This document shows, in pieces, positions 18,685 to 24,055 of a stretch of 34,276 nt of DNA (the first letter of the stretch is position 1; every line of letters begins with the position of its first letter). The stretch is taken from contig DAOVKU010000004.1 of assembly GCA_030631665.1 (NCBI GenBank), positions 1 to 34,276 of the forward strand, written 5' to 3'. The translations under genes were made by a program, and so were the position numbers. The notes beneath the pieces were generated by a model. It ran no database searches. It was not told the origin of the DNA and saw only the letters and a list, made by a program, of their open reading frames with translations. The DNA is from Candidatus Omnitrophota bacterium (GTDB taxonomy: Bacteria; Omnitrophota; Gorgyraeia; DAOVKU01).

Positions 18685-18762
18685 CGGGGCGTAGCGCAGT
18701 TTGGCTAGCGCGCCTGCTTCGGGAGTAGGAGGTCGGCGGTTCAAATCCGCCCGCCCCGACCA
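18685..18762 (+). tRNA. tRNA-Pro(CGG), CCA encoded
   Basis: Cloverleaf by eye: acceptor CGGGGCG/CGCCCCG, D-stem GCGC/GCGC, anticodon arm CCTGC-TTCGGGA-GTAGG, T-arm GGCGG-TTCAAAT-CCGCC, ACCA. Confidence 0.95.
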
Positions 18763-18763
18763 A
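18743..18763 (+). repeat. left copy of 21-bp direct repeat (tRNA-Pro 3' end), candidate attL
   Basis: AAATCCGCCCGCCCCGACCAA identical to 24035-24055. Confidence 0.85.
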
Positions 18764-18766
18764 TAC

Positions 18767-18900
18767 TTTGGTTTAGCGCGTCCACCTCAGGCAGAAGGTC
18801 GTCCGCCTAAGGCGGACCGCCCCGACCAATGCTTTTGGTTTAGCGCATCCACATCAGACGGTAGGTCGTCCGCCTGAGGCGGACAGCCCTGACCAAAAAA
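18767..18900 (+). repeat. two 67-nt degenerate copies of the tRNA-Pro D-arm-to-3'-end segment (18767-18833, 18834-18900)
   Basis: In register with the tRNA segment 18700-18766 (TTTGGNTTAGCGC ... AGGTCG ... GCCCNGACCA); T-arm replaced by GTCCGCCTNAGGCGGAC. Confidence 0.85.
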
Positions 18901-19115: not shown

Positions 19116-19146
19116 AATATGTATTCCATATATTAATTGTTATGTG
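19116..19146 (+). repeat. half attC-like site, near-identical to 22347-22377; R' = GTTATGT (19139-19145)
   Basis: AATATGTATTCCATATATTAATTGTTATGTG vs AATATGTATTCCACATATTAATTGTTATACG. Confidence 0.65.
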
Positions 19147-19180
19147 AAAAAATAATTAAAATAAAAAAGGAGATAAAGAC

Positions 19181-19267: not shown

Positions 19268-19391
19268 ACTGTTTAATAAAACAAATTCGTCAAGTGGATT
19301 ACAGTTAAAGAATTAAGAGACGAAGTGCTTTGTTTGCTTAAGGAAATAGGGGTTGTAGTTTAAAAAGTTTAAAGTATGAATGAATAAAAAC

Positions 19392-19470
19392 ACATAACAA
19401 CGCACTACACCTGACCTTTTCCCGCGCCCTATCGGGCTTGGTCAAAGTCAGGTGAGCTTGAATGTTATAG
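19392..19470 (+). repeat. attC-like recombination site 1
   Basis: R'' ACATAAC, L'' CTACACCTGAC, L' GTCAGGTGAG (one extrahelical A), R' GTTATAG. Confidence 0.85.
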
Positions 19471-19484
19471 GATAAAAAATAAAA

Positions 19485-19970: not shown

Positions 19971-19978
19971 CAATTAAC

Positions 19979-20063
19979 CTATAACAATTCGCTTCACATT
20001 GACCGGAACCTGTGCCCGATTTCATCGGTCACGGATTCCGGCAAGTGAGCTCAAATGTTATGC
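19979..20063 (+). repeat. attC-like recombination site 2
   Basis: R'' CTATAAC, L'' TTCACATTGACCGGAA vs L' TTCCGGCAAGTGAGC, R' GTTATGC. Confidence 0.85.
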
Positions 20064-20096
20064 AATACGTAGCAAAAATAAGCATAAGGAGAAATA

Positions 20097-20837
20097 ATGT
20101 CGATACCTAAGGTTTTTATCTCTTACTCACATGATACCCAAGAACATAAAAAGTGGGTTTTAGATTTAGCTACTCGTTTACGGGGGGGCGGTGTTGACGC
20201 AATCATTGATCAATGGGAACTAAGGCCAGGTGACGATCTGCCTCACTTTGTGGAAACTCACCTGGCTGATTCAGATTATGTAATTATGGTCTGTACGGAT
20301 AGGTATGTTGAAAAAGCAAATAAGGGTGTCGGCGGTGTCGGATATGAAAAGATGATTATTACGGCCGATCTGTTTGCCAATATCGATTCTAACAAAATCA
20401 TTCCTATTATCCGGCAAAGTGGAACTCACAACGTCCCTACATTTCTGAAAACCAAACTATTTGTTGATTTCTCTCATTCAGGTGATTACGAATACAGCTT
20501 CGATGAACTTGTAAGAACCTTCCATGATGCCCCTCTTTTTGAAAAGCCTGCCATCGGCAATAGTCCTTTCATACCGATAGAAGATATTCGACCAGAAAAA
20601 ACAGGCGATGCCCTACGCGAATTAATGGCCATAGTCGTAACCGATTTTGAAGCAGGGTATGATTGGTCAGTCTACAAATCAATTGTCAAAAAAGTTGGAG
20701 TGTCAAGGATAATGCTTGATTCACTTATAATGGAGGCTAAAAAGAAAGGTTTAGTCACTCAAGATTCCGATAAAGATCTCCGTTTAGCTGAAAAAGGCAA
20801 ATTCTATGCGGTCGAACATAAATTAGTGAAAGCATAA
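20097..20837 (+). CDS. SEFIR/TIR-domain protein with C-terminal winged-helix-like region (cassette C)
   Basis: KVFISYSHDTQEHKKWVLDLATRLRGGGVDAIIDQWELRPGDDLPHFVETHLADSDYVIMVCTDRYVEKAN...GGVGYE; GGAG RBS. Confidence 0.85.
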   Translation: MSIPKVFISYSHDTQEHKKWVLDLATRLRGGGVDAIIDQWELRPGDDLPHFVETHLADSDYVIMVCTDRYVEKANKGVGGVGYEKMIITADLFANIDSNKIIPIIRQSGTHNVPTFLKTKLFVDFSHSGDYEYSFDELVRTFHDAPLFEKPAIGNSPFIPIEDIRPEKTGDALRELMAIVVTDFEAGYDWSVYKSIVKKVGVSRIMLDSLIMEAKKKGLVTQDSDKDLRLAEKGKFYAVEHKLVKA

Positions 20838-20909
20838 CAAAGCGCTGCACCCGACTGTTAGCCGCCGCCTTCGGTGTCGGGCGCTAGCAGGTGAGCTTGA
20901 ATGATATAG
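20832..20909 (+). repeat. attC-like recombination site 3 (R' mutated: GATATAG)
   Basis: R'' GCATAAC; L boxes pair; R' has GAT instead of GTT. Confidence 0.75.
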
Positions 20910-20917
20910 GAGAAAAA

Positions 20918-21511
20918 ATGAAAATATTGAAAGAAATATTAAAGGCATTAAAAGAACTAATCTCAATAATTTTAGGCTTTGCTTTAGTGGCTTTCATTTG
21001 CTGGGGAATTTATCTCATAGCAAATAAAGTGATTTCTGTATTTATAAAACTGGATCCTACTGTTGCTGCCAGTTTAATAGCGGCTTCAGTAACAATTATT
21101 GTGTCTGTTATTTCTGTTTTGTTGGCTAAACTTTTAGAACATAGGTCCGAGATCCGTAAAGAAATGCGTATAAAAAAAATTCCTGCATACACTGACTTAA
21201 TAAATTTTATGTTTCGAGTATCTTTTGCTAAAAAAAGAGGACAAAACCCGCCAACCGAAAAAGAGATACTTGATTTTTTTCAAGGATTCACAGAAAAAAT
21301 TGTTGTATGGGGATCAGATGATGTAATTAATGCTTTTAATGCTTTTCGTACTTTTGCACAAAAAACTCAAACTGCGCAAAGTGAAAATATTTTATTTGTA
21401 GCAGAGACATTATTTTTAACAATAAGAAAAGATCTCGGACATAAAAATAAGGGCTTAACAAAAGGCAAACTCTTAGGGCTTTTTGTAAATGATATTGAAA
21501 AATACCTATAA
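20918..21511 (+). CDS. membrane protein, two predicted TM helices plus cytoplasmic domain (cassette D)
   Basis: Hydrophobic segments IILGFALVAFICWGIYLIA and AASLIAASVTIIVSVISVLLA; ATG at 20918 with TAGGAG upstream. Confidence 0.75.
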   Translation: MKILKEILKALKELISIILGFALVAFICWGIYLIANKVISVFIKLDPTVAASLIAASVTIIVSVISVLLAKLLEHRSEIRKEMRIKKIPAYTDLINFMFRVSFAKKRGQNPPTEKEILDFFQGFTEKIVVWGSDDVINAFNAFRTFAQKTQTAQSENILFVAETLFLTIRKDLGHKNKGLTKGKLLGLFVNDIEKYL

Positions 21512-21580
21512 CCAGACAATACATCTGACCTTACTCTGCGGCTGCGCCGTTCCGCAAGGCAGCTGATTTTTGTATTATGT
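21506..21580 (+). repeat. degenerate attC-like site 4
   Basis: R'' CTATAAC and L'' CATCTGACC clear; L' GGCAG partial; R' decayed (ATTATGT). Confidence 0.6.
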
Positions 21581-21593
21581 GAGAAAAACTAAA

Positions 21594-22328
21594 ATGCCCA
21601 GAGATAAAAAAATTAAGAAAATATTTGAGATAGCCGATGATGGAATCCAAGGAGTAGTGGGCTATTTCTTTTATGTCCTTGCGTGCAAGAATGCAGTCAA
21701 TGCAAATTCCCTTCTGTCAAAACTTCCCGATAAAGTCATTCCAATTACCCATGAATGGTCTCGATACTATAATCCACATGACCTTATTGATATTATGAAT
21801 TCGCTTTTTAATCCATATCATGCCCGCATATGTTTGATTTCAACAATTAGCATATTTGAAGGAGCATTAAAAAATTTTATTGAAAGACTCTTGGATGCAA
21901 ATAAAATTAAACAGTCTCCTAAAAATAGCTATAAGAAAAAACTTGAATGGATATTTCGCGAAGTATTAAAATCTAATTATGGCACAGCCACAATGATAGC
22001 AAGAATACCTGAACTTTGCCTGCATATCGATCATGCCCGACGCATAAGAAATCTATGGATGCATAATAATGGTCTTTTTGATGAGCACTATAAAAAAGAC
22101 GGTATTTTGTTGCCGAAATATTCTCCCATTATTGATGTCTCATATAAAAATAAAAAACCGGTTATAATAAAACCTGAATGGTTTCTTGCTATGTGTCATT
22201 CACACATAGAGTTATTGCACCAAATCCATTACCAACTACAAAAGAAATATTTTGGTCAAAAAAAATCCTATAGCTATAAAGAATTAAAAAAACGTATTGA
22301 GTGGCATAGGCTTTTAACTGGTGTATAA
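21594..22328 (+). CDS. HEPN-like protein with R-X4-H motif (cassette E)
   Basis: HARRIRNLWMHNNGLFDEHY contains RNLWMH (R-X4-H); ATG 21594 chosen over TTG 21570, which lies in the attC. Confidence 0.6.
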   Translation: MPRDKKIKKIFEIADDGIQGVVGYFFYVLACKNAVNANSLLSKLPDKVIPITHEWSRYYNPHDLIDIMNSLFNPYHARICLISTISIFEGALKNFIERLLDANKIKQSPKNSYKKKLEWIFREVLKSNYGTATMIARIPELCLHIDHARRIRNLWMHNNGLFDEHYKKDGILLPKYSPIIDVSYKNKKPVIIKPEWFLAMCHSHIELLHQIHYQLQKKYFGQKKSYSYKELKKRIEWHRLLTGV

Positions 22329-22335
22329 TGAAAAT

Positions 22336-22376
22336 ACATAACAATTAATATGTATTCCACATATTAATTGTTATAC
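22336..22376 (+). repeat. short, nearly perfect palindromic attC-like site 5
   Basis: ATAACAATTAATATGT-ATTCC-ACATATTAATTGTTAT; 16-bp perfect stem, R'' ACATAAC and R' GTTATAC. Confidence 0.65.
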
Positions 22377-22383
22377 GAAAAAT

Positions 22384-23079
22384 ATGGAAATATCGATTAT
22401 GGAAACATTCAAGGTAATAGGAATTGGTCTTGCGACAAATGGAACATTACTTGCATTATTTATAATCATTTTTAAAAAATGTTTTGACGCTTGGCTATCT
22501 AAATCAACCGAAATTCATCTGAAGAAAATTGAATTGGAAAACAATAAGAATTTATATAGTTATGGAAAAATTTTCGACGAACAAGCAGCAATAATTAAAG
22601 AAATTTATTCTGATATAACTGTAATTTTCGGAAATATTCAGCATTTATTATATCACTTTAATTTATTGGAGAATAATCCTGAATTATTCGATCACTTGCG
22701 AATTCCTAAAAACGGAGACGGCCCAAAATGGGATAAATATCTCAAGGCAACGCTATCAGAAAGTCGTGAAGAAAAAATTGCTAAAAAAACTTCTGAGCTT
22801 GCAAGTACAACAACAAGAAAAATTCAATCCAATAAAATATTTTTTCCCAAGCATATAGCAAATGAATTAGAAGTATTATCTACTCTTGGTTTTTTTATAG
22901 CATCACAGTTCAAAAATGTTACTTATAGAGATCCTGAAACATTTGAAACTCCTATTGCTAATGAAGTTATTGAAACCTGGAAACAAGCAATAGAAACATC
23001 AAGAACGACACTACCTATTTTAGAAGATATGTTTAGAAAACATTTGAGGATAGAAGAAACAGAAAAAAATGACGTATAA
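22384..23079 (+). CDS. hypothetical protein with single N-terminal TM segment (cassette F)
   Basis: Intact ORF; GIGLATNGTLLALFIIIF hydrophobic segment then coiled/charged domain. Confidence 0.7.
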   Translation: MEISIMETFKVIGIGLATNGTLLALFIIIFKKCFDAWLSKSTEIHLKKIELENNKNLYSYGKIFDEQAAIIKEIYSDITVIFGNIQHLLYHFNLLENNPELFDHLRIPKNGDGPKWDKYLKATLSESREEKIAKKTSELASTTTRKIQSNKIFFPKHIANELEVLSTLGFFIASQFKNVTYRDPETFETPIANEVIETWKQAIETSRTTLPILEDMFRKHLRIEETEKNDV

Positions 23080-23139
23080 CAACTCAATACACCCGACCTT
23101 TTCCGCCGCTCCAAAGGCGGGTGATTTCGGGCGTTATAG
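23074..23139 (+). repeat. attC-like recombination site 6
   Basis: R'' GTATAAC, ATACACCCGACC vs revcomp ATCACCCGCC (extrahelical bases), R' GTTATAG. Confidence 0.85.
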
Positions 23140-23151
23140 GAAAATAAATTT

Positions 23152-23943
23152 ATGAAAATAGAGAATTGGGAAGATTTTGAAGAAAAAATAAAAAAAATTT
23201 ATTCTAAAGTTCAAAGACTCAAAACTAAAGAGAATGCTTCCAAAGTTTCAACTCCACTATTTCGCGGTCAAAGCGATGCTGCATGGGAATTAAAAACAAC
23301 GTTAGATAGATTGGAAAGTAATTTCTCAGTTGAAAAATACTACAGAATAATTCGCAGCATAAAATCTGCTGTAGAAAGCTACACATCAAATCGTTGGCAA
23401 TTGCCAACCATCGAACGAGACTTAACTCAACTAGATAAATACGATACAATATCTATGCCTTCTTATGAATTTATGACACACCTTAGGCATAATTGTTTCC
23501 CCTCACCACTCTTAGACTGGACAAGATCACCATATATTGCAGCTTTTTTTGCCTTCAATGAAGACAAAAAGACAGATCCGGCAATTTATGTGTATATTGA
23601 ATTTACTGGTAAAGGGAAAACTTGGCGTTCTGACAAGGCAAAGATTTGTTCATTGGGGCCGAATGTTACAACACACAAACGACATCATCTGCAGCAGAGT
23701 GAATACACTTTTTGCATAAAAGGAATGGACAAAAAATACTCATATGCACCCCATGAAGAAGTCATATCAAGATCAAGTACAGATCAAGACATTATTGAAA
23801 AATACAGTTTACCTTATTCTGAAAGAGCATTTTTTTTGAACAAACTAAATCAAATGAATATTAATGCTTATTCCCTTTTTGAAAATGAAGAAGGATTAAT
23901 GAATAAACTTGCAAATGAAGAATTGTTAATAAAAAACCTATAA
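23152..23943 (+). CDS. FRG-domain protein (cassette G)
   Basis: PLFRGQSDAAWELKTTLDR near the N-terminus and MTHLRHNCFPSPLLDWTRSPYIAAFFAF. Confidence 0.82.
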   Translation: MKIENWEDFEEKIKKIYSKVQRLKTKENASKVSTPLFRGQSDAAWELKTTLDRLESNFSVEKYYRIIRSIKSAVESYTSNRWQLPTIERDLTQLDKYDTISMPSYEFMTHLRHNCFPSPLLDWTRSPYIAAFFAFNEDKKTDPAIYVYIEFTGKGKTWRSDKAKICSLGPNVTTHKRHHLQQSEYTFCIKGMDKKYSYAPHEEVISRSSTDQDIIEKYSLPYSERAFFLNKLNQMNINAYSLFENEEGLMNKLANEELLIKNL

Positions 23944-24003
23944 CAATTCGCTGAAGCCGACCATTTTGCTGCGCAAAATGGCGGCTTAGCTCAAGAACAA
24001 TAA
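23938..24003 (+). repeat. attC-like recombination site 7 with lost R' box
   Basis: CTATAACAATTCGCTGAAGCCGACC...GGCGGCTTAGCTCAAG resembles the class 1 integron aadA-type attC; expected GTTATAG replaced by AACAATAAA. Confidence 0.8.
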
Positions 24004-24034
24004 AGGGGACGGTTCTATTAAAATATGGGAAGAG

Positions 24035-24055
24035 AAATCCGCCCGCCCCGACCAA
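24035..24055 (+). repeat. right copy of 21-bp direct repeat (tRNA-Pro 3' end), candidate attR
   Basis: AAATCCGCCCGCCCCGACCAA identical to 18743-18763, with no tRNA 5' half. Confidence 0.85.

Follow-up and report, generated by a model that had tools for sequence, protein, structure and literature searches.

What does a small intact gene encode when it lies in an array of palindromic sites, and how is it carried? The question is raised by a stretch of 34,276 nucleotides from a Candidatus Omnitrophota bacterium (contig DAOVKU010000004.1), hereafter the window. Judged from its sequence, the gene looks like a portable anti-virus gene, and cassettes hold close relatives of it in other phyla too. 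We consider, at a probability of about 0.6, that it is a cassette of an integrase-less integron array at a tRNA-Pro island and that it encodes a compact single-gene anti-phage effector resembling bSEFIR, acting through the mechanism proposed below. The features of the locus are collected in Table 1.

Table 1. Coordinates of the SEFIR-winged-helix gene and of the surrounding array in the window
Feature	Position	Strand	Evidence or remark
tRNA-Pro(CGG), left island boundary	18685..18762	+	tRNA search
attC1	19390..19474	+	Fold test, covariance model
attC2, directly upstream of the SEFIR cassette	19977..20067	+	R' intact; fold test, covariance model
SEFIR-winged-helix gene	20097..20837	+	246 aa, intact; ATG 20097, TAA 20835-20837; ORF and family matches
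SEFIR domain	20097..20549	+	Residues 1-151; Pfam, PDB, fold search
Glu84 codon, candidate catalytic (inferred role)	20346-20348	+	Invariance across SEFIR proteins
Winged helix (predicted)	20586..20834	+	Residues 164-246; structure model and fold search
attC3, the SEFIR cassette's own site	20830..20913	+	R'' box holds the gene's stop codon; R' core GAT, not GTT
attC4	21504..21584	+	Fold test, covariance model
Short palindrome at attC position, possible reduced attC	22336..22375	+	16-nt perfect arms; fold z -6.6; outside the models
attC6	23072..23143	+	Fold test, covariance model
Neighbouring last-cassette gene, FRG-domain protein	23152..23943	+	Pfam FRG 2.8e-18; PADLOC PDC-S15 candidate defence family 4e-33
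attC7, last site	23936..24007	+	R' box degenerate; fold test, covariance model
Right island boundary	24035..24055	+	21-bp repeat, identical to the 3' end of tRNA-Pro (18743-18763)

A SEFIR domain joined to a predicted winged helix

The initial annotation had assigned the N-terminus a SEFIR/TIR fold, and this assignment holds. Pfam TIR_2 matched residues 6-139 (2.6e-21; 76.8 bits against a curated cut-off of 28) and Pfam SEFIR matched residues 4-117 (1.8e-14; 54.7 bits against 23), while the PADLOC bSEFIR model matched residues 1-185 (2.8e-78). The closest solved structure by sequence was 5y8e, a prokaryotic SEFIR domain (PDB, 2e-28), and the fold check that the annotation had called for returned the same structure as the top Foldseek match of the predicted fold (E 5.8e-13). 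The Bacillus structure (5y8e/5y8f) shares with the window protein the SEFIR fold, 39% identity and the motif GGVGxE, but it comprises the domain alone, without a winged helix. Like bSEFIR (PADLOC PDLC03957), the window protein is the product of a single gene and contains the SEFIR domain and the linker that follows it. However, it has 246 residues against 412 model positions; since only positions 35-232 of the model are matched, we file it as a variant, in which positions 233-412 have no counterpart and a winged helix replaces the model's C-terminal half.

The C-terminal ~75 residues, previously described as winged-helix-like, are predicted to adopt a helix-helix-helix-strand-strand-helix topology. 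The last 83 residues were modelled as a winged helix (pLDDT 92.7, pTM 0.83), the model having a three-helix helix-turn-helix core and a beta-hairpin wing. In a fold search, the nearest folds were mostly nucleic-acid-binding winged helices, including Sso10a, DtxR, MarR/NadR and ZBP1 (E 0.007-0.04), so that both the model and the search agree with the earlier description. Pfam HTH_45 was weakly matched in 9 of 41 members of the SEFIR-winged-helix family, and a fold search against viral structures returned mostly generic TIR or winged-helix neighbours. An aromatic wing residue is the mark of Zalpha domains; a Zalpha-type winged helix, suggested by ZBP1 (TMt 0.86), was dropped because the window sequence lacks this residue.

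Glu84, in the motif GGVGYE, was invariant in all 93 SEFIR proteins at the loci listed (54/54 short and 39/39 long), which were found with search patterns (VFISYSHD and HKKWVL) that exclude Glu84 but include the invariant FISYSHD and HKxW residues. The motif itself is near-invariant across very different architectures. By position only, Glu84 is a candidate counterpart of the catalytic Glu in TIR-type NADases: the PDB TIR alignments end near residue 73, short of Glu84, and yielded no alignment to the TIR catalytic Glu, and the loop near Glu84 was modelled with low confidence.

The protein could also be a regulator or signalling adaptor, in which the winged helix would bind promoter DNA and the SEFIR domain would serve only to contact other proteins, as it does in the IL-17 receptor signalling of animals, and would leave NAD+ uncleaved. 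The folds nearest to the winged helix include the transcription regulators DtxR, MarR/NadR and also IclR, and the animal adaptor TRAF3IP2 is one profile match of the window protein, both of which fit such a role. We nevertheless regard it as improbable, because Glu84 and its motif are retained across such different architectures, because the gene is found next to defence genes in cassettes, proviral contigs and plasmids, and because no conserved regulated partner gene was seen at the loci inspected.

The cassette array and its tRNA-Pro boundaries

The region from 19.4 to 24.0 kb contains six attC sites, located between its ORFs and after them. When folded as attC bottom strands, four of the seven stretches tested, including the short palindrome, folded far better than shuffled sequences; by folding energy alone, the other three did not stand out from shuffles. 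Two covariance models were used, one (R1) built solely from the six long sites of the window, leaving out the short palindrome, and one (R2) to which sites from three other loci (L016, L036 and L028) were added. The R2 structure covaries across 19 sites (0.380 versus 0.108 shuffled, 0/500), and this signal collapses when the partners are slid. R1 recovered attC sites in the intI-bearing integron of Thiomicrorhabdus arctica (L036; 1.2e-5 and 0.001) and, in three genomes from the class to which the window's host belongs (L135, L136 and L137), sites next to intI, and gave weak matches in intI-bearing Sulfuriferula (L016; 0.22) and in Pelobacter (L028; 1.9). These data bear out the proposal that the gene is an integron cassette: the SEFIR-winged-helix gene sits in an integron cassette array. 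An attC scorer of our own, based on AAC/GTT and fold energy, performed less well than the covariance model, missed the window's own sites and was discarded.

A 36-bp element is repeated with 92% identity at 19116-19151 and 22347-22382, the second copy forming half of the short palindrome; this repeat raises the possibility that a reduced, AT-rich form of attC is in use here. The cassette protein encoded at 21594-22328 has no Pfam match, and its sequence RIRNLWMH resembles the HEPN RNase motif R-x4-6-H, being one of three such matches in this protein, which may be due to chance.

In the host genome, no match to an integron integrase passed the curated cut-off (best 90 bits versus 265), and since this genome is 93% complete, the absence of intI is likely, not certain. 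With several attC sites and no intI, the array is a CALIN, and its short co-oriented ORFs also agree with the definition. Beyond what that definition requires, it is bounded by the 21-bp repeat of the tRNA-Pro 3' end. With one mismatch allowed, the 17-bp core of this repeat has no further occurrence in the 1.5-Mb genome. Directly after the tRNA gene are two degenerate partial tandem copies of its 3' half (18767-18896), which look as though several elements had inserted at tRNA-Pro. No recombinase was seen among the ORFs of the island, and the array looks like a tRNA-targeted island carrying cassettes without a recombinase.

The host's lineage does have integrons. Among 58 other genomes of the same class, 17 contain attC matches, and in three of them (G010, L137; G034, L136; G050, L135) an intI over the cut-off lies next to an attC array; these intI ORFs of 430-455 aa exceed the 315-position model. 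The window CALIN thus comes from a lineage that has integrons. The complete integron of G010 is located near a tRNA-Pro(CGG) gene, and one ORF beyond this tRNA gene comes an acylphosphatase; an acylphosphatase, 50% identical to that of G010, follows the island in the window too. The integron of G050 is likewise near a tRNA gene. The common tRNA-Pro/acylphosphatase neighbourhood suggests, without proof, an old integron location. Elsewhere in the host genome, only three further attC-like sites were found, on other contigs, one (contig C66; L132 4629-4686) about 1.1 kb after tRNA-Ser(GCT) and another on contig C76. This lineage may tend to carry single cassettes close to tRNA genes.

Several R' boxes are degenerate, and no promoter signal above chance was found in the array; for these reasons the gene may be unexpressed or immobile in this host even with a functional protein product. 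It may be functional elsewhere and frozen here, in a decaying remnant where it would neither move nor act, as the missing intI and the tRNA-bounded remnant, with no recombinase seen inside, would also suggest. Against this, the ORF is intact and keeps the family-invariant residues, and we give this possibility well under an even chance. It concerns the present state of the gene in its host, not the function of the protein, and can hold together with the anti-phage effector reading.

Relatives of the gene and their cassettes

A scan of viral contigs with the single window protein as query gave no match, and a plasmid search returned a full-length Aliarcobacter relative (50.6%, 98% coverage) that lies near a DUF4365 protein and PDC-S21, a candidate defence gene. 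A two-member alignment as query found 14 SEFIR loci in viral contigs and 351 in genome contigs, of which the best 80 of 351 were used. About 50 loci, among those listed, encode SEFIR proteins of 240-260 aa. All 42 aligned members share the SEFIR-winged-helix architecture, and the bSEFIR model matches every one of them. The named loci represent at least 13 phyla, in addition to proviral contigs and plasmids, and the gene tree, a quick tree with many weak forks, is incongruent with taxonomy. The relative in Idiomarina (L009) is 72% identical to the window protein. One copy, in Saccharospirillum (L017 6001-6120), has a stop after 39 codons and full-length similarity, and represents either a broken copy or a sequencing error.

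Scanning of 95 homolog loci with R2 showed attC sites flanking the SEFIR-winged-helix genes in L016, L036, L028, L029 and Vibrio nereis (L043), and weakly in L037. Because L016, L036 and L028 helped to train R2, R1 is their independent test, and since it is weak for L016 and L028, the argument is carried by the intI genes of L016 and L036, both of which hold the gene in a cassette, together with attC sequences on both sides. Weaker or visual evidence of attC was found at L009, L011, L012, L018, L024 and L041. Each of the closest relatives of the window protein, from Chloroflexota (L011), Kiritimatiellota (L012) and Idiomarina, is accompanied by attC sites or by remnants of them, and about a dozen members among the scanned loci are in cassettes or accompanied by attC remnants. 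Mapped on the gene tree, in which many forks are weak, the cassette label requires 8 changes, at least 5 of them forced by strong branches, versus 11.1 when shuffled. Taken together, the SEFIR-winged-helix proteins are a widespread family whose gene is recurrently a cassette. Neither this family, nor the lack of an integrase, nor the tRNA-Pro repeat bounds were part of the initial annotation. A search of the open-licence literature, in itself weak evidence, found no description of the SEFIR-winged-helix architecture or of its repeated cassette carriage across phyla.

An exact TAACAA at the stop codon occurs in 8 of 52 SEFIR-winged-helix genes, and a wider motif class in 10 of 52 versus 19 of 417 background ORFs. 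The stop fused to TAACAA is suggestive as a cassette marker, confounded by shared ancestry. Longer SEFIR proteins are also found beside attC or intI (L072, L073, L076, L077 and L086). In a Campylobacterales MAG (L076 1259-2515), intI has the longer SEFIR gene as its first neighbouring ORF at a distance of about 300 bp, the place expected for a freshly captured cassette.

Proposed function and defence context

SEFIR systems are reported to work through NAD+ depletion and abortive infection (PMC12322248, PMC12774641). The most probable function of the window protein is that of an NADase under the control of its winged helix. On infection, the winged helix would bind a nucleic acid or protein associated with the phage's presence, which would let the SEFIR domains assemble; the assembled domains would cleave NAD+ through Glu84, and the loss of NAD+ would arrest or kill the infected cell before phage release. 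The gene would have moved between phyla as an attC cassette, capturable by a cell that supplies IntI.

A defence effector with a different SEFIR activity, such as production of a signalling nucleotide for a partner protein, is quite improbable. TIR-like enzymes of some systems do make signals, and the window protein weakly matches the Thoeris ThcB4 and ThsB models; however, the gene occurs as a single-gene cassette, no conserved partner gene was seen at the loci inspected, and the published SEFIR systems deplete NAD+. We propose, tentatively and as a doubtful extension of the NADase reading, that the protein may be a distinct one-gene immune receptor, in which detection of a phage nucleic-acid or DNA-bound signal by the winged helix directly activates the SEFIR NADase, with integron cassettes as a main vehicle between phyla, including lineages that store the gene in intI-less arrays at tRNA genes.

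The locus offers a small, easily cloned SEFIR effector with a built-in candidate sensor and about 50 natural relatives for comparison, so that the trigger of SEFIR immunity would become testable through domain swaps. It also provides independent evidence that integron cassettes have carried the SEFIR-winged-helix gene in several phyla, and would extend the idea of integrons as defence reservoirs to a lineage with an integrase-less array. The general idea is not new, since integrons are already established as anti-phage reservoirs (PMC12409362, PMC12444791 and the 2025 papers they cite). Like the anti-phage cassettes of chromosomal and mobile integrons described in those 2025 papers, the window gene is a small defence-type attC cassette; unlike them, it lies in an array without intI, in a probably uncultured lineage, and its family occurs in cassettes across several phyla.

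The suggestion that the gene is a one-gene defence effector in cassette form gains support from comparison: the bSEFIR matches throughout the aligned family, the invariant Glu84, the spread through proviral contigs, plasmids and cassettes, and the known or candidate defence genes among the cassettes of related integrons. With the FRG/PDC-S15 gene as its last cassette, the window array contains at least two defence-like genes. In Pelobacter (L028), the next cassette after the SEFIR-winged-helix gene encodes a TIR protein, and the Thiomicrorhabdus arctica array that holds the gene also includes Shedu SduA (3.1e-175) and a PD-DExK/NucC-like nuclease. In the latter integron, SduA (L036 1968-3155) is the first large ORF beside intI.
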